The position numbers were made by a program, and so were the translations under genes. Below the pieces are notes generated by a model that was given only the letters and a program-made list of their open reading frames with translations, searched no databases and was not told the origin of the DNA. From a virus: a stretch of 51,071 bases of DNA. The DNA lies in the IMG/VR virus record IMGVR_UViG_3300008267_000194, positions 1 through 51,071 of that record; one strand, written 5' to 3'. Positions 270 through 25,349 of this stretch are shown in pieces (positions within the stretch are counted from its first letter, which is position 1; each line of letters begins with the position of its first letter).

Positions 270-277
270 ACTAAATA
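270..277 (+). promoter_or_regulatory. Possible T4-type late promoter (ACTAAATA)
   Basis: The octamer ACTAAATA differs from the T4 late consensus TATAAATA at the first two bases. It sits 24 bases before the ATG at 302, in the only gap between the two fibre genes. A similar CTAAATAC form lies before gp13. Weak on its own; supported by its position. Confidence 0.35.
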
Positions 278-629: not shown

Positions 630-3600
630 ATGGCATTTATAGGTAACGCACCAAATGTTACGGGCGCAACAGGCGCTCAAGGTTATCAAGGTGTCCAGGG
701 CGCTCAAGGTGTTCAGGGTCATCAGGGTGTTCAGGGAGATCAGGGCGTCCAGGGAAACCAGGGTGTTCAAGGTGCTCAAGGTGTGCAGGGAAACCAGGGT
801 GTTCAAGGCCATCAAGGTGTTCAAGGATACCAAGGTGTACAGGGTGCTCAGGGTAACAATGGTAACTTCGGTGGAGCTACTTTTGATTACACATTTGATA
901 CGGATACTAATAACACCGATCCTGGGGCTGGTGGTTTAAAGTTTAATCAAGTAAACTTAATTAGTGCTACTAATTTATGGATCGATGATGAGAATGATAA
1001 CTTAACCGATCTTCAAGATTTTTTAAGAACGATAGATGACTCCACGTCCACTATCAAAGGTCACTTCAGAATTTCTAAGAAATTCGATGCAGCTGCGTTT
1101 GTGTTGTTTACAATCTCTTCTATTTCCGAGCAAGCTGGATATTTCCAAGTTGATTGTGCATATGTAACAGGAAGTTCTTCGGCACCTTTCACTGATGGTG
1201 AGGATGTATTAATCACATTTGCTAGAACTGGTGATGTTGGTGCGCAGGGTGTGCAGGGTGCTCAGGGGGTCCAAGGTCATCAAGGAGTACAGGGTGCTCA
1301 AGGTGTTCAAGGAGCTCAAGGCGTTCAGGGTGATGTTGGAGCTCAGGGTCATCAAGGCATTCAGGGTGCTCAAGGAGTTCAAGGCCATCAGGGCGTGCAG
1401 GGAGAACAAGGTGTTCAGGGCGCTCAGGGAGTCCAGGGTCATCAAGGCGTTCAGGGTGCTCAAGGCGTCCAGGGTGAGCAGGGTGTACAGGGAGCTCAAG
1501 GTGTCCAAGGAGCACAAGGTGTTCAAGGAGCCCAGGGTGTTCAAGGTGATCAGGGCGTACAAGGTCACCAGGGTGTCCAAGGTGATGTTGGTGCGCAAGG
1601 TAATCAAGGTGTACAAGGTGCACAGGGTGTACAGGGTTTCCAGGGTGTTCAGGGAGATCAGGGCGTTCAAGGCTACCAGGGTGTGCAAGGTGCTCAAGGT
1701 GTACAAGGTGCTCAAGGCGTACAAGGCCATCAAGGTGTCCAGGGCGCTCAAGGTGTTCAGGGTCACCAGGGCTTTGGTTATGCACCACTGACTTCTGGTT
1801 CTGCTCTACCTACAACTAACATATCTGGAAACACGACTGCATATCAATATGTGAGCAGTGCTGATGCATATGCTATTGGTGATTATGTAATCATTAACGA
1901 TACTGATAGCGGATCTACTTTCTTCCACTATGCAAGAATTAATAATGTTCAATTTGCAGGTGGATTTGGATACGCATTAACTTATGATATGTTGGACGCT
2001 GGTGGTACACCTGTTAATAATCCTTCATACACATGGTCTATCCATTTAACAGGTATCAAGGGATATCAGGGATATCAAGGCGTTCAGGGAGCTCAGGGCG
2101 TTCAAGGCGTTCAAGGTGCTCAGGGTGTGCAGGGTGTTCAAGGATTCCAGGGTGTTCAAGGCGCACAGGGCGTTCAGGGCGCACAGGGCGTTCAAGGTCA
2201 CCAGGGTGTTCAAGGCGCACAAGGCGTTCAGGGCCATCAAGGCCAGAGTGGTGCGTTCGGTGGTGCTGCTTTTGAGTACACATATGATTCTGATACAACT
2301 AATTCAGAACCAGGTGATGGTTTTATTAGGTTCAGTAACGCAGACATAGCCGTTGCAGCTAATTTGTATATTGATCAGCAAGATGGTGCGACTCCATCTG
2401 CTAATATCTACAACTTCCTACAGACGATTGATGATTCTACATCAGCAATAAAAGGTCACTTCACAATTACTGAAGTCTCCAACACTGACCACTATGCTTT
2501 GTTTACCATTACTGGTTTACACACGCACAACACACACTACTTCAGTGTTCCTGTAACGTTTATTTCAGGAAGCAATTCTTGGTCAGACAATACAAACACA
2601 ATCATCACATTTGCAAGAACTGGTGATCAGGGTGATGTTGGCGCTCAAGGTAGTCAAGGTGTTCAAGGTGCACAAGGTGTTCAGGGTGCTCAAGGTGTCC
2701 AGGGTGCCCAAGGTGTTCAGGGTGCGCAAGGTGTTCAAGGACACCAGGGTGTTCAAGGAGCTCAGGGTGTTCAAGGTCACCAAGGTGTTCAAGGTGCTCA
2801 AGGCGTTCAAGGTGCGCAGGGCGTACAAGGAGCTCAAGGCGTCCAGGGTGTTTTAGGCGCCCAGGGTAATCAAGGTTTCCAAGGTGTTCAAGGAGCCCAA
2901 GGTGTACAGGGTCACCAGGGTGTTCAGGGAGCTCAAGGTGTCCAGGGAGCTCAGGGTCGTCAAGGATTCCAGGGTGTTCAGGGTGCTCAGGGTGTTCAGG
3001 GTGTTCTAGGAGCTCAAGGTTTCCAAGGTGTTCAAGGTGCTCAGGGTGTTCAGGGCGTTATCGGTGCTCAGGGTAACCAAGGCGTTCAAGGAGCACAGGG
3101 TGTTCAGGGTGTATTGGGAGCTCAAGGCAATCAGGGTGTCCAGGGTGCTCAGGGACGTCAGGGTGATCTTGGAGTGCAGGGTGCTCAAGGACGACAAGGT
3201 GCTCAAGGCGTTCAAGGTGTTATAGGTGCTCAGGGTGCTGTTGGTGCGCAGGGTGCTGTAGGCGCTCAAGGAACAGTTGGTGCGCAGGGTGCTGTAGGTG
3301 CTCAGGGAACTGTAGGTGCCCAAGGTGCTGCTGGTGCTCAGGGTGTACAAGGTGCTCAAGGACGACAAGGTGCTCAAGGTGTTCAGGGTGTTATTGGTGC
3401 TCAAGGTGCTGCTGGTGCTCAGGGTGCTGTTGGTGCTCAAGGTAACCAAGGTGTCCAAGGTGCTACCGGTCTTGTAACAGGCACAAATTCTAACTGTAAC
3501 TCGTTTGGTGTAGGTACAGCTGCTTCCGGTACTGCTGGTGAGATCAGAGCTACAAACAACATTACAGCTTATTATTCTGATGATCGTTTGAAAGTCAGAA

Positions 3601-3878
3601 TCGGTAATATTGAAGATGCTGTTGATAAAGTCAGACAACTAACAGGCTTCTATTATACTGCTAACGAATTAGCAAAGAGCTTCGGTTACCAGGGTGAGTT
3701 ACAAGTTGGTGTTTCTGCACAGGAAACACAAAAAGTACTTCCAATGGCTGTCGTTCCAGCTCCTATCGATGATAGATTCCTAACAGTTAGATATGAAAAA
3801 ATTATCCCATTGTTGGTTGAAGCGATCAAAGAATTACAACTTCAAATTGACTTAATAAATAAAAGATTAGATAATTAA
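630..3878 (+). CDS. Collagen-like tail fibre with C-terminal S74 chaperone
   Basis: A 1082-residue mosaic fibre. Four runs of Gly-X-Gln triplets (about residues 10-73, 201-380, 475-539 and 667-948) are separated by three globular inserts (about 73-201, 380-475 and 540-667). The first and third inserts are clearly related, sharing FGGA-F-YT-D-DT near their starts and the string TIDDSTS-IKGHF. The C-terminus matches the peptidase S74 intramolecular chaperone: SDDRLK begins at Ser983, followed by GVSAQE and a coiled-coil-like tail. In that family the chaperone cuts itself off in front of the serine after the trimer has folded. The protein is likely a long trimeric receptor-binding fibre. The antisense and shifted open frames across the repeats are by-products of the repeat. 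Confidence 0.9.
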
Positions 3879-3904: not shown

Positions 3905-4612
3905 ATGAATAGTGATCCTTTTGACCATATTGTAATAGACAACTTCTTAGACGAAAATCTTGCTAAGAAGTTGTCTTCTGAGTTTATGGATTACGACAGT
4001 CCTAATTGGTACTGCTACAACAATCCACTCGAACACAAAAAGACATCTAACAACTGGTATCACTTTCCTCCAGCGACATATCATTATATGTCGTATTTGA
4101 ACTCACCAGAATTCATTAAGCGTATTGAAGATACGACAGGTATCACAGGTCTATACCCCGATATTGGTTTACATGGTGCTGGTTGGCATATCCACGGCCG
4201 TGGGGGCAAGCTAAACGTTCATTTGGATTATTCTATTCATCCAAAGCTTAAGCTCCTAAGAAAACTAAACATCATCATATACCTCGAGCAAGATTGGGAT
4301 CCAGCTTGGGGTGGTGGTTTGGAGTTGTGGTCAAATGATCCCGAGACAAACAAACCTCTCAAAAAAGTTAAGCATGTTGACTATAAGTTTAATCGCGCAG
4401 TACTGTTCGATACTACCCAACACTCCTGGCATGGTTTTGCAGATCCGTTAACCTGCCCTGAACATAAACACAGAAAAAGTATTGCAATGTACTATCTAAT
4501 CGATCCGCCTGAAGGTGTAGATAGTAGAAAGCGTGCTTTGTATGCTGCATCTGAATCGCAAAAGAACGATCCATCTATTAATAAATTTATTGAGGAAAGA
4601 TCCAAGTTATAA
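3905..4612 (+). CDS. 2-oxoglutarate/Fe(II)-dependent oxygenase (prolyl 4-hydroxylase-like)
   Basis: A 235-residue protein with the double-stranded beta-helix oxygenase signature: the iron pair H106-x-D108 (VHLDY), a distal histidine at H176 (SWHGF) and an arginine at R190 expected to hold 2-oxoglutarate. The family uses O2 and 2-oxoglutarate to hydroxylate protein or small-molecule substrates; the substrate here is unknown. It directly follows the collagen-like fibre gene and its stop overlaps the next start (TAATG), so it appears to belong to a four-gene modification cassette. Fibre hydroxylation is an attractive but unproven role. Confidence 0.78.
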   Translation: MNSDPFDHIVIDNFLDENLAKKLSSEFMDYDSPNWYCYNNPLEHKKTSNNWYHFPPATYHYMSYLNSPEFIKRIEDTTGITGLYPDIGLHGAGWHIHGRGGKLNVHLDYSIHPKLKLLRKLNIIIYLEQDWDPAWGGGLELWSNDPETNKPLKKVKHVDYKFNRAVLFDTTQHSWHGFADPLTCPEHKHRKSIAMYYLIDPPEGVDSRKRALYAASESQKNDPSINKFIEERSKL

Positions 4613-7116: not shown

Positions 7117-7670
7117 TGGACAAAAGATTATTTGTAGTAGACAACTTCTATGCAAATCCAGATGATGTAAGACAGTTTGCTCTCGGTGTTGATTACGAAG
7201 AGAGCTCTCAGTGGTACAAAGGTAAGCGGTCAAAAGAACAATACAACTTTCCCGGTATACAGGAAGCGTTTGAGGGTGTTATGGGAATGAAACTCAAACC
7301 TTTGAACGAGCATGGTATGTGTGGTAGATTTCAATTGCTAACAGCAAATGATCCGGTAGTTTATCATTATGATAGTCAGCAATGGGCTGCTATGATTTAT
7401 TTGACACCCAATGCACCGGTACAAAGTGGCACTTCTTTGTACAAATCCAAAATTACTGGAGCAAGACGTTTAGAAGATCCCGGCATCGATGACAGCTTTC
7501 CCAGAGGTTTTTACGATAGTTCACAATTCGAAGTTGTAGACCAAATTGGTAACGTGTACAATAGAGCGGTAATCATGGATGCTAGATGCATTCACTCTGC
7601 TTCCATGTATTTTGGAAACAATGATAACAACTGCCGATTGACTCACCTTTTCTTCTTTGATAATGCATAA
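7113..7670 (+). CDS. DUF6445-like putative 2OG/Fe(II) oxygenase
   Basis: A 185-residue protein starting VVDNFYANPDDVRQFAL, the usual opening of the DUF6445 family. It has an H85-x-D87 pair (YHYDSQQW), a distal H161 (CIHSA) and R175 (NCRLTHLFFFD), the spacing expected of a beta-helix oxygenase. Function is unproven. The ATG at 7113 overlaps the stop of the preceding gene (ATGATGA), with a GAAGGTGA ribosome site upstream; ATG 7116 is an alternative. This is the second oxygenase-like gene in the fibre-adjacent cassette. Confidence 0.6.
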   Translation: MMDKRLFVVDNFYANPDDVRQFALGVDYEESSQWYKGKRSKEQYNFPGIQEAFEGVMGMKLKPLNEHGMCGRFQLLTANDPVVYHYDSQQWAAMIYLTPNAPVQSGTSLYKSKITGARRLEDPGIDDSFPRGFYDSSQFEVVDQIGNVYNRAVIMDARCIHSASMYFGNNDNNCRLTHLFFFDNA

Positions 7671-8925
7671 CTACAAATTTAGTTTAATTACGCCTGAACA
7701 TAGTGTTAAAAATATTCCGTTTCTCATTGAGTTGTATGATAGTATCAAGAAACAAACATATGATAATTGGGAATGGATTCTTTACTTAAACAATGGATTT
7801 AAGAAAACCGACTTACCTTTAGAGATCCTTGCTGATCTTAAAGTGGTTATCATTGATGGTGAAACAAACCCCAACATTGGTTACTTGAAGAATAAGGCAT
7901 TCCATGCTGGAACTGGTGACATCCTTGTTGAAGTTGACCACGATGATGAACTAGTTGATGTTTGTTTGGAAAAACTAAACAAAGCCTTCCAGGATGAATC
8001 TATTGGATTCTGCTACAGCGATAACGCTGTTAATCATATGGAAAACAAGTTTATTCCATACAATGAGGCATATGGCTGGAAGCATAGAATGTTCAAGTGG
8101 AAAGATAAGTTACTTTTCGCTATGAACAGCTTCAAACCATCCAGTCATAGTTTGGGTTACATTTGGTATGCTCCAGACCATGTTAGAGCTTGGCGTAAAG
8201 ATGTGTATGTTGCTATTGGTGGCCACAATCCTGAACTATCTATTTGCGATGATCACGAATTGTGTATCCGCACCTACCTAGCTACAAAGATGCATCACAT
8301 TCCGGAGGTTCTTTACATCTATAGAATCACTGGTGATAATACTTGGTTAGAACGTAATGCGGCTATCCAGCAAAAAACTGTTGAGTTATTTAATCAAAAC
8401 GCTCAGCAGTTAGCAGAAAAGGATGCTAGAGATAAAGGTTTAATGTTAATTGATATTGGTGGTGGATTGAATCCTCGAGCTGGTTATCTAACAATTGACC
8501 AAGAAGGTGCTGATATCACCTGCGACCTTAACGATCGCATTCCTCTTCCTGATAATAGTGTTGGGGTTATCAACGCTAGCCACGTCATCGAACATCTGAA
8601 AGATAAAACTAAAACGATGAGTGAGATCCATAGAGTTCTTGCACATGGAGGTTGGGCTTTCATTGAAGTTCCTAGCACAGATGGTCGTGGAGCGTTTCAA
8701 GATCCCACACACGTAAGCTATTGGAATCAAAACAGCTTCCTGTATTACACTGATGCATATCTTGCAGGGTTTATCAGGAACAAAGACATTAAGTTCCAGG
8801 AATTCCGTAAGGAAACATGGTTTCCTAATGAATGGCTGAAGAGTTTGAACGTGTGTGTTACAACGGCTTGGCTTGTTGCAAACAAAGAAGGTGGTGAACG
8901 CCTACCTCATTTGAAGAAAATCTAA
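7663..8925 (+). CDS. Glycosyltransferase-methyltransferase fusion
   Basis: A 420-residue protein counted from ATG 7663; an in-frame TTG at 7657 is a less likely start. The N-terminal part is a GT2-like glycosyltransferase: FSLITPEHS, SIKKQTYDNWEW and the acidic metal motif DHDDE, then ICDDHELCIR. From about residue 255 it becomes a type 11 class I methyltransferase: MLIDIGGGLNPRAGY, LPDNSVGVINASHVIEHL and a GGWAFIEVPS strand. It overlaps the previous gene by eight bases. Like the 834-residue neighbour it joins sugar transfer and methylation, with the domains in the opposite order. The target is unknown. Confidence 0.78.
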   Translation: MHNYKFSLITPEHSVKNIPFLIELYDSIKKQTYDNWEWILYLNNGFKKTDLPLEILADLKVVIIDGETNPNIGYLKNKAFHAGTGDILVEVDHDDELVDVCLEKLNKAFQDESIGFCYSDNAVNHMENKFIPYNEAYGWKHRMFKWKDKLLFAMNSFKPSSHSLGYIWYAPDHVRAWRKDVYVAIGGHNPELSICDDHELCIRTYLATKMHHIPEVLYIYRITGDNTWLERNAAIQQKTVELFNQNAQQLAEKDARDKGLMLIDIGGGLNPRAGYLTIDQEGADITCDLNDRIPLPDNSVGVINASHVIEHLKDKTKTMSEIHRVLAHGGWAFIEVPSTDGRGAFQDPTHVSYWNQNSFLYYTDAYLAGFIRNKDIKFQEFRKETWFPNEWLKSLNVCVTTAWLVANKEGGERLPHLKKI

Positions 8926-8928
8926 CAA

Positions 8929-8970
8929 ATAAAAATCTCCTAAATACCAAGAGTATAAGGAGATTTTTAT
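8929..8970 (+). promoter_or_regulatory. Hairpin covering the gp13 ribosome site and start codon
   Basis: A perfect 13-base inverted repeat: arm 8929-8941 (ending ATCTCCT) pairs with 8958-8970 (AGGAGATTTTTAT) around a 16-base loop. The right arm holds the Shine-Dalgarno AGGAG and the first two bases of the gp13 ATG. Read-through mRNA would therefore hide the start. The late-promoter motif lies at the arm/loop junction, so mRNA begun there lacks the left arm. It may also act as a terminator, since the right arm ends in a T-run. Confidence 0.75.
8940..8947 (+). promoter_or_regulatory. Late promoter before gp13 (CTAAATAC)
   Basis: TAAATA preceded by C, a variant of the T4 late -10 element TATAAATA. 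Initiation about six bases downstream would fall near 8952, inside the hairpin loop, giving a short leader with AAGGAG before the ATG at 8969. Confidence 0.5.
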
Positions 8971-9712
8971 GGCTGTACCTACAAGCAGAGCTACCTTCAA
9001 AGAATATTGCTTACGCAAACTTGGTAAACCAGTAATTGAGATCAACGTCGATGATGATCAAGTAGATGACAGAATTGACGAGTGTATTAGATATTATTGG
9101 GATTACCACTTTGATGGTACAGAGAAGACTTATTACAAGCACTTAATTACTGATCAAACTAAGATCGACAAGTATATTACATTGCCCGAAAACATCATCG
9201 GAGCAATTCGTGTATTCCAAATTGGTGATCCTTCTATTAGAGCTAGCGATATGTTTAATATCCGCTACCAGATTGCTCTTAATGACTTGTACCAACTAAC
9301 TACTGTTTCCTTGCTGCCTTATTATATGGCTATGCAGCACCTGGGAACTATCACTGAACTATTGGTAGGTCAGCAACCCATTAGATACAATAGACATACT
9401 AATAAAATGTATGTTGATATGGATTGGACCAAGATTGATGTTGGCCAATACCTGTTGGTAGAAGCATATGAGGTGATCGACCCCGACACATATACTAATG
9501 CTTGGGGTGATCGTTGGTTGCAAGAATACACAACACAGAAGATCAAATACCAGTGGGGATCCAACCTGACAAAGTTCAATGGAATGGTTCTTCCAGGTGG
9601 TGTTCAATTCAATGGCGAAAGAATTCTCGATGACGCAGAAAAAGCTATTGAAAAACTAGAACAAGAGATGATCAGCAGCTACTCACTGCCTGTAGCAGAT
9701 ATGATAGGCTAA
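8969..9712 (+). CDS. gp13: Neck protein gp13
   Basis: A 247-residue protein opening with FKEYCLRKLGKPVIEINVDDDQVDDRID, split here only by its Asp-rich helix, which is characteristic of T4-like gp13. In T4, gp13 and gp14 form the neck that closes the filled head and receives the tail. It is shorter than T4 gp13 (about 309 residues), as is usual in marine relatives. It is first in the run 13-14-15-16-17. Its start lies within the hairpin at 8929-8970. Confidence 0.88.
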   Translation: MAVPTSRATFKEYCLRKLGKPVIEINVDDDQVDDRIDECIRYYWDYHFDGTEKTYYKHLITDQTKIDKYITLPENIIGAIRVFQIGDPSIRASDMFNIRYQIALNDLYQLTTVSLLPYYMAMQHLGTITELLVGQQPIRYNRHTNKMYVDMDWTKIDVGQYLLVEAYEVIDPDTYTNAWGDRWLQEYTTQKIKYQWGSNLTKFNGMVLPGGVQFNGERILDDAEKAIEKLEQEMISSYSLPVADMIG

Positions 9713-9713
9713 C

Positions 9714-10442
9714 GTGGCAACTAATTTCTTTTTTAACAACTTTCAATCTTCGCAGGAGCAGATGCTCATTGCGGATTTGGTAATTGAATCAATTAAGATT
9801 TACGGTCTTGATTGTTGGTACATTCCCAAAAGAGAAGTAAACAAAGATAACATATATGGAGAAGATTCTCTTGTAGAGTACAACACTTCCTATATGGTTG
9901 AGATGTATGTTAAGAATGTTGAAGGCTTTGCTGGCGAAGGCGACTTCTTATCTAAGTTTAACGTTGAAATCAGAGATCAGATGACTCTGACTATTGCTAG
10001 ACGCACTTTTGAAGATGAAGTTCAGCACTATGAGTCTGGGTATACTAGACCACGTGAAGGTGATTTGATCTTCATGCCTCTCAATAATAAAATATTCCAA
10101 ATTAAATTTGTTGAGCATGAACCCGTCTTTTATCAGATGGGTGCTTTACAAATGTATGACTTGAAGTGTGAGTTGTTTGAATACAGTAATGAAATTATCA
10201 ATACAGGTTTTGATGTTATTGATGATCTTCAAAACAAGTATTCTGATGCAATGAATTCTTTTGCTATTACAACTGAGAGTGATCTAGAACTTAAAATGGA
10301 AGATGGGTATTCACTGATCAGAGAAGAGTTCGATCTAGAAGTTCAAGATGTACTATCAGATAACTTTGATGTTCAAACGGAATCAGATGACTTCTTAGAC
10401 TTTACCGAAGCTGATCCATTCAGTGAAGGAGGTAGGTACTAA
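9714..10442 (+). CDS. gp14: Neck protein gp14
   Basis: A 242-residue protein beginning with a GTG codon at 9714, one base after the gp13 stop, which implies coupled translation. The N-terminus (NFFFNNFQSSQEQMLIADLVIESI) and YNIYG-like region followed by YTRPREGDLIFMP are typical of T4-type gp14, the head-closure partner of gp13. The acidic C-terminal third (repeated DLE, DDF) is variable in the family. Its last base overlaps the first base of gp15. Confidence 0.87.
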   Translation: MATNFFFNNFQSSQEQMLIADLVIESIKIYGLDCWYIPKREVNKDNIYGEDSLVEYNTSYMVEMYVKNVEGFAGEGDFLSKFNVEIRDQMTLTIARRTFEDEVQHYESGYTRPREGDLIFMPLNNKIFQIKFVEHEPVFYQMGALQMYDLKCELFEYSNEIINTGFDVIDDLQNKYSDAMNSFAITTESDLELKMEDGYSLIREEFDLEVQDVLSDNFDVQTESDDFLDFTEADPFSEGGRY

Positions 10443-21945: not shown

Positions 21946-21953
21946 GATAAATA
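21946..21953 (+). promoter_or_regulatory. Late promoter directly before the 21959 gene (GATAAATA)
   Basis: Seven of eight matches to TATAAATA immediately after the gp23 terminator. Only five bases separate it from the ATG at 21959, so expected initiation falls on or near the start codon. Confidence 0.6.
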
Positions 21954-21958
21954 CATTC

Positions 21959-22480
21959 ATGAGCGCACTAGACAACCAACCAGCAAATAAGAATTTTCTT
22001 TCTCCACTTGGTTTCAAGTTTCAGATTAAGAAAACACCGCACCTGAACTACTTCGTTCAGTCTGTCAACTTGCCAACAGTTTCAATTGGCACGGTTGAGA
22101 TCGGTACACCTTTTACTAAGATTCCATTTCCAGGCGATAAGTTAACCTTCGGTCAGCTTGACGTTACATTCAAGGTCGATGAAGATATGGAGAACTACAC
22201 AGAGATCTTCAATTGGCTGATTGCAATGGGTCACCCTGATAGCTTAACTGATAGTGCTACAATATATTCAGCTCCAGCCATGTCTGGTAATGGTGTGTAT
22301 TCCGATTTGACTTTGGTCATTCTTACAAATACACTGAATGGTAATAAGATAATTAACTTTACAGATGCCTTTCCGGTCAACCTTTCCGACATTACATTCG
22401 ACACAACATTGTCTGATGTTGAGTATGTCACAGCGACAGCAACGTTTGCTTATAGAAGATTTACGCTAGCCTCGTTGTAA
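21959..22480 (+). CDS. Tail tube-like structural protein (possible tail terminator gp3)
   Basis: A 173-residue protein from ATG 21959 (MSALDNQPANKNFLSPLGF). The longer open frame from 21644 overlaps gp23 and the terminator and is rejected. The pattern FLSPLGFKFQIKKTP, VQSVNLPTVSIGTVEIGTP, PGDKLTFGQLDVTF and a final YVTATATFAYRRF echoes the gp19 tube fold. Homologues are found in this place in marine T4-like phages. A tube-terminator (gp3) role is plausible by size and synteny but not certain. No Shine-Dalgarno is visible. Confidence 0.65.
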   Translation: MSALDNQPANKNFLSPLGFKFQIKKTPHLNYFVQSVNLPTVSIGTVEIGTPFTKIPFPGDKLTFGQLDVTFKVDEDMENYTEIFNWLIAMGHPDSLTDSATIYSAPAMSGNGVYSDLTLVILTNTLNGNKIINFTDAFPVNLSDITFDTTLSDVEYVTATATFAYRRFTLASL

Positions 22481-24809: not shown

Positions 24810-25349
24810 ATGGCTACACATTACGTTGATAATAAACATTTGTATCAAGTTATTATTGAACACAAGAAAAACATTAAGGAAGCAGAAGCTAATGGTAAAC
24901 CGAAACCAGCAATTCCAAACTATGTCGGTCATTGTATTCTTTTGATTGCTAAACGGCTATCATTAAAACCTAACTTTGTTAACTATTCATATCGTGAAGA
25001 GATGATTAGTGATGGTATTGAGAACTGCATCAGCTACTTTGATAACTTTGATCCAGAAAAGTCAACCAATCCTTTTGCATACTTTACACAAATCATCTAC
25101 TTTGCTTTCCTTCGAAGGATCCAAAGAGAAAAGAAACAGCTATACATTAAGCACAAGTCCTATGAAAACAGTATGTTGTTTGAAGGGTCTGCTGAAAACC
25201 ATGAACTGGATGAGAACGACTTCTCACCAAACATTGCTGCCAGTAATGACAACATGCTTGACTTTATTAAAACATTTGAAGACAATCTCGACAAGAAAAG
25301 AGTTAAACGTAAACAAGGTTTAGAAAAGTTTTTTGAAGAGGAACAGTAA
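24810..25349 (+). CDS. gp55: Late-transcription sigma factor gp55
   Basis: A 179-residue protein of the T4 gp55 family. It carries the region-2-like helices IPNYVGHCILLIAKRLSLKPNF, MISDGIENCISYFDNFDPEKSTNPFAYFTQIIYFAFLRRI in broken segments, and a basic tail. gp55 replaces the host sigma subunit and directs RNA polymerase to TATAAATA promoters, coupled to the sliding clamp gp45. Such sites precede gp18, gp22, gp23 and others here. Length matches T4 gp55 (185). Confidence 0.92.
   Translation: MATHYVDNKHLYQVIIEHKKNIKEAEANGKPKPAIPNYVGHCILLIAKRLSLKPNFVNYSYREEMISDGIENCISYFDNFDPEKSTNPFAYFTQIIYFAFLRRIQREKKQLYIKHKSYENSMLFEGSAENHELDENDFSPNIAASNDNMLDFIKTFEDNLDKKRVKRKQGLEKFFEEEQ

Follow-up and report, generated by a model that had tools for sequence, protein, structure and literature searches.

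A late promoter embedded in a start-covering hairpin before the neck gene g13 of T4-like phages: a predicted lock on upstream read-through

In phage T4, the Shine–Dalgarno (SD) sequence and start codon of the lysozyme gene e are held in an RNA helix in long transcripts initiated upstream, while late promoters are located in the 5' strand of this helix and late transcripts are made without it (PMC3014915). The hairpin represses gene e about 100-fold, and the same mechanism operates at soc, gene 49 and I-TevI (PMC3014915). Hairpins that sequester the ribosome-binding site (RBS) have also been described at segB and at mobE of phage Aeh1 (PMC2988022). In this study, we analysed a stretch of viral DNA of 51,071 nucleotides (IMG/VR record IMGVR_UViG_3300008267_000194, the whole of which is referred to here as the window), in which the promoter and hairpin geometry of soc, 49, I-TevI, segB and mobE recurs before g13, a gene for a neck protein. 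A first-pass annotation of this DNA had named T4 e and soc as precedents, which is correct and can be extended to 49 and I-TevI (PMC3014915).

The locus resembles T4 gene e in that the SD and start would be hidden in the long transcript, the late promoter lies in the 5' strand and the late form would be free. However, gene e is a lysis gene that is reached by early transcripts and has been tested experimentally, whereas g13 is a head-neck gene located below a variable cassette and its lock is a prediction from sequence; also unlike gene e, the arms at g13 have been rewritten between relatives. The soc, 49, I-TevI, segB and mobE group consists mostly of accessory, homing or recombination genes on early or middle transcripts, whereas read-through at gp13 may itself be late. 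The gp13 protein is essential in T4. A third likeness is to the marine cyanophages S-PM2, Sf-CH1b and ACG-2014i, in which the boundary between the upstream gene and the same gene, g13, carries a long hairpin enclosing TAAATA; in these phages, however, the stem is located 5' of the RBS and closes with a run of T, so that it resembles a terminator whose loop contains a promoter more than it resembles an RBS lock. While the mechanism is already known from T4, we found no report of a start-hiding hairpin at g13, or of its evolutionary upkeep there, in the literature searched, the coverage of which was partial. The evolutionary support for the g13 case is unusually good, and what we say of its function is prediction from sequence and modelling.

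The g13 junction and its late-transcription context

The window derives from a freshwater T4-like phage and encodes the neck proteins gp13 and gp14, sheath, tube, scaffold and major capsid proteins, UvsY, a late sigma factor and a sliding clamp. Cultured phages are all distant, and the best match of gp13 among their proteins, with 66% identity, is in Stenotrophomonas phage DLP6. The components of T4 late transcription that were found are a gp55-type late sigma factor and a gp45 clamp homologue (phrog_223, E 3.3e-72). The features needed for the argument are as follows.

272-277, plus strand: TAAATA, candidate late promoter of the upstream block, ahead of the ORF at 302
7657-8925, plus strand: upstream gene, family 2 glycosyltransferase plus methyltransferase, on the same strand as gp13
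8929-8941, plus strand: left (5') arm of the hairpin, ATAAAAATCTCCT, including the anti-SD sequence TCTCCT and lying 5' of the predicted late +1
8941-8946, plus strand: TAAATA, T4-type late promoter element, at about -11 to -6 of the predicted +1
near 8952, plus strand: predicted late +1, placed by T4 late promoter spacing, giving a leader of about 17 nt
8958-8970, plus strand: right (3') arm, AGGAGATTTTTAT, comprising the SD AGGAGA (8958-8963), a spacer and bases 1 and 2 of the start codon
8969-9712, plus strand: gp13, neck protein / head-tail adaptor Ad2, 247 aa (PHROG match, E 1.6e-41)
9714-10442, plus strand: gp14, neck protein / head closure Hc2, starting 1 nt past the gp13 stop
24810-25349, plus strand: gp55-like late sigma factor (phrog_234 late sigma transcription factor, E 3.6e-60)

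At other places in the window, TAAATA stands directly ahead of the plus-strand late genes for sheath, tube, scaffold and major capsid protein, and it was therefore identified as the late promoter element; this agrees with NATAAATA, which has been put forward as the late promoter of cyanophage S-PM2 (PMC2984593). The form CTAAATA was rejected as the promoter motif, with only 3 occurrences in the window, below chance (8.9 expected), and TAAATA with a variable preceding base was the useful one. TAAATA itself is also rarer in the whole window than expected (29 found, 40 expected), and many of its occurrences stand before plus-strand late genes, as if stray late promoters were avoided. One of them, at 21948-21953, has a strong terminator just 5' of it and would make the A of the ATG at 21959 the late +1, so that the late mRNA of this gene, a second tail-tube-like gene (phrog_45), may be leaderless. 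We also note, at 630-3878, a collagen-like protein of 1082 aa that consists mostly of GVQGAQ-type repeats.

The end of the glycosyltransferase/methyltransferase gene (8925) and the gp13 start (8969) are bridged by an inverted repeat, the arms of which (8929-8941 and 8958-8970) are each 13 nt long, 100% complementary and separated by a gap of 16 nt. The first-pass annotation had described a perfect 13-pair repeat enclosing the SD and start codon, with TAAATA at the junction of left arm and loop. The repeat and the position of TAAATA, the first T of which is the final base of the left arm, are confirmed; the right arm takes in the entire SD but, of the ATG at 8969, only the A and T, leaving the G outside. 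The predicted fold of 8926-8975 has an energy of -16.2 kcal/mol, and all 200 dinucleotide-shuffled sequences were less stable (z -5.9). From Markov shuffles, 0.07 repeats with perfect 13-bp arms and a loop of at most 20 nt would be expected in 51 kb, and the window has two; the other such repeat (3937-3976, 14-nt arms, 12-nt loop) is located within the start of a 2OG-Fe(II) oxygenase gene. Searches against Rfam families gave sub-threshold matches only (25.6 and 19.8 bits against gathering scores of 47 and 55, respectively).

As the T4 late box is found about one helical turn 5' of the transcription start (PMC2988020), the late +1 is expected at about 8952, which would put the left arm at -23 to -11. 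This agrees with the earlier claim that transcription from the late promoter would yield an mRNA without the left arm. When both mRNA forms were folded, the region from SD to AUG was predicted to be open in the late form, the leader of which is unstructured around the SD, and hidden in the read-through form, the predicted cost of freeing it at the window locus being 3.1 and 15.1 kcal/mol, respectively. Averaged over 45 loci, the opening energy was 2.9 kcal/mol for late and 7.7 kcal/mol for read-through forms, compared with 5.6 kcal/mol when the upstream sequence was swapped (Wilcoxon p 6e-4). The g13 locus thus shares with T4 e, soc, 49 and I-TevI an SD and start paired in the predicted fold of the long transcript, a left arm that lies 5' of the late +1 as placed by T4 spacing, a predicted open RBS in the short late mRNA, and pairing that is kept in relatives, although not universally, about one-third of them being weak.

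Pairing among gp13 loci and its turnover

Eighty gp13 loci were first fetched from IMG/VR and 225 more came from three later scans; the analysis used those in which TAAATA precedes the start codon at a distance of about 19-42 nt. For each locus, a stretch U upstream of the predicted +1 (in the main test, the 30 nt before it) was paired in silico with R, the leader plus 12 coding bases, either its own or those of all other loci. Such swaps keep composition and motif, because the promoter is common to all U and an SD-like stretch to nearly all R. In a set of 45 loci, own pairs gave -13.2 kcal/mol and swapped pairs -10.7 kcal/mol (z -6.5). The signal was also present in 101 non-redundant loci (z -8.7) and, on their own, in the 58 loci from the later scans that were absent from the first test (z -4.6). 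Neither the choice among four redundancy cut-offs nor that among three assumed start sites removed it (z -6.8 to -9.5), and moving the assumed +1 by -1 or +2 nt had little effect. Controls on the first set, in which U was shifted upstream, coding sequence was used or R was reversed, gave z between -1.4 and 0, and U shifted to -80..-51 and to -110..-81 in the pooled set gave z -2.0 and -0.1. With a sliding 15-nt arm, the signal came mainly from -31 to -5 and peaked at -28 to -11, directly 5' of TAAATA. That the left arm lies 5' of the predicted +1 in relatives follows from the way U was defined, but its closeness to the promoter does not.

About one-third of the relatives have TAAATA and an SD and a weak or absent occluding arm; in the cultured phage DLP6, too, TAAATA is present and a strong hairpin absent. 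No TAAATA was found within 80 nt before g13 in phiN3, Melnitz, P-RSM6, P-TIM40, RHph_I1_18 and RB33. Loss of arm pairing in relatives that keep promoter and start had been named in the first-pass annotation as speaking against its reading. Pairing is maintained overall, and we do not take the loci with little or no occluding arm, which do count against the reading, as refuting it.

In the nearest relatives (L358, L002, L462, L442 and L003), the TCTCCT/AGGAGA core is fixed and the loop is variable, and each of three pairs beside the core shows one A-U to G-C double change (in L462, L442 and L003). Shuffled sequences would give 0.5 double-changed pairs against the three observed, and 2 of 500 shuffles reached as many; shifting the alignment register loses the pairing. 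In more distant loci, the same promoter is again surrounded by stems, of unrelated sequence and 7-19 bp in length (L060, L081, L045, L005 and L011), among them stems of 19 bp in L060, 12 bp in L081 and 13 bp in L045 and a GGTGTCT/AGACACC stem in L011 and L471. In some loci the arms are carried on the promoter's own flank, as TACTCC/GGAGTA or TAAATATCT/GGATATTTA. Compensatory arm changes, which had been proposed as a check, are therefore found, and pairing is also kept by hairpins rebuilt from new sequence.

The effect was looked for at other late genes as well. A promoter-proximal arm signal was absent at the major capsid gene g23 (z -0.1, 8 loci), the sheath gene g18 (z -0.2, 30 loci) and the tube gene g19 (z -0.3, 12 loci), where the g23 and g19 controls rest on only these 8 and 12 non-redundant loci. 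When U was extended to -55..-1, sheath reached z -3.0 and tube z -2.2, but neither showed the signal close to the promoter that is seen at g13, and late promoters other than that of g13 in four near-complete relatives and the window gave z -1.6 (p 0.06). A generalization to other late genes was hence rejected. Single-gene look-alikes, in which a late promoter stands inside a strong SD-covering hairpin, were seen in G004:C1 near 98810 (TTTTTTTTCTCCTAAATACCCCATAAAAGGAGAAAAAAATG) and 119065, both on the minus strand, and in G005:C1 near 16189; the products of these genes have no clear function.

Insulation, timing and other readings of the hairpin

We suggest that the hairpin probably acts in cis as a lock against read-through into gp13, whether the benefit is one of insulation or of timing. 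RNA entering from upstream would carry the left arm, which would fold over the SD and start codon, and gp13 would be poorly translated. RNA polymerase with gp55 would start at TAAATA inside the hairpin, and such a start would give a transcript without the left arm, from which gp13, and gp14 behind it, would be translated; gp14 adjoins the gp13 stop without a TAAATA of its own and therefore probably follows gp13. In this way gp13 would answer only to its own late promoter. What the analysis shows is the sequence, the predicted folds, the pairing conserved through sequence turnover and its specificity among the gene starts tested. The +1, the read-through transcription and the repression are what we infer.

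The main rival is an intrinsic terminator, in which the hairpin and the following TTTTTAT would end upstream transcripts just before gp13 and the promoter in the loop would restart transcription. The window stem is flanked by AAAAA and TTTTT, and its U-rich tail would permit a weak terminator; an ordinary terminator precedes the window late promoter at 21948; and at the g13 junctions of S-PM2, Sf-CH1b and ACG-2014i the stems are richer in GC, enclose TAAATA in their loops and are followed by a T run. Cyanophage g13 late promoters in such terminator-like loops, for example AAATCCCTATCTG-aTAAATA-CAGGTAGGGATTTTT, were located as follows.

L327 (S-PM2), about 950-987: terminator-like g13 hairpin
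L593 (Sf-CH1b) and L600 (ACG-2014i), just before g13 at 401: terminator-like g13 hairpins

In the window, however, the core stem, at -8.0 kcal/mol and with the large loop of the 16-nt gap, is weak beside the tight terminator after g23 (-13.4 kcal/mol), and a compact GC-rich stem with a conserved U tract was not found: the tract is present in the window, but compensatory changes in near relatives put C into it while keeping the pairing. At least five T in 7 nt occur in only 5 of 29 strong-hairpin loci, and the right arms of relatives track the SD rather than a T run. A simple terminator scan also did not return this site, although the scan allows only loops of 3-8. We therefore regard termination as an unlikely explanation for the window hairpin, though lock and terminator functions could coexist. 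It is very improbable that the pairing is a by-product of anti-SD-like sequence favoured near promoters, or of shared composition, with no role in translation. Pairing is weak in many relatives and late promoters are A+T rich, as this would have it; yet the signal is lost in the swap, shifted, reversed and coding controls, in which composition or promoter is retained, near relatives show double changes, and the effect is absent from the proximal arms of g23, g18 and g19 and reaches only z -1.6 at other late promoters. Scarcely probable, too, is a processing site at which an enzyme of the RNase III or E type cuts the stem and frees gp13 mRNA from a long transcript: the stem is perfect and stands in an intergenic gap, and T4 mRNAs are known to be processed, but 13 bp is short for RNase III, and the placement of the promoter and the pairing of the SD would be left unexplained.

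Within the read-through lock, the readings differ only in what is blocked. A timing lock as at T4 gene e, where the hairpin prevents premature synthesis of neck protein from early or middle read-through, follows exactly the logic of e, soc, 49 and I-TevI and suits gp13 as a late structural gene, but we consider it rather unlikely. The gene before gp13 varies among phages and encodes a glycosyltransferase/methyltransferase, nucleotide-sugar epimerase, tail fibre, fibre assembly protein, holin, endolysin or oxygenase; such a variable cassette slot was seen in L003, L007, L011, L026, L035, L045, L080, L344 and the window. Several of these gene types, such as those for tail fibre, holin and endolysin, are normally late. 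Since the upstream genes are variable and many are probably late, insulation from read-through is favoured over strictly late timing. The claim that the hairpin keeps neck synthesis 'strictly late' is consequently unsupported, given also that the upstream block has a candidate late promoter of its own, at 272. Timing accounts for the observations no better than does insulation from whatever transcription reads through from upstream, the molecular step being the same in both, and we think that the selected benefit is mainly insulation of the neck gene from the changing upstream cassette, with late timing as a possible extra. Where the upstream gene is antisense, no lock would be needed; hairpins at the 10 such loci were weaker on average (-7.9 compared with -9.0 kcal/mol), but as a predictor of hairpin strength upstream gene orientation gave a trend only (p 0.18).

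Going beyond the window locus, we tentatively propose, as a conjecture with somewhat less than even chances, that the g13 junction of T4-like phages represents a family of self-escaping insulators, that is, late promoters within read-through-blocking hairpins that would shield neck genes from a hypervariable upstream cassette rather than set timing, and that would have been rebuilt repeatedly in at least four forms. The proposed forms are an anti-SD arm before TAAATA, the promoter-borne TACTCC/GGAGTA, the TAAATATCT/GGATATTTA pair, and a terminator with TAAATA in its loop.

These findings broaden the picture from a few T4 genes studied singly to a core structural gene in a large group of uncultured phages. 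The double changes, the repeated rebuilding and the gene specificity are evolutionary evidence that selection maintains a promoter-embedded RBS lock, and they suggest how the output of a core gene can be kept independent of the gene next to it even where that position is a cassette slot of rapid turnover.
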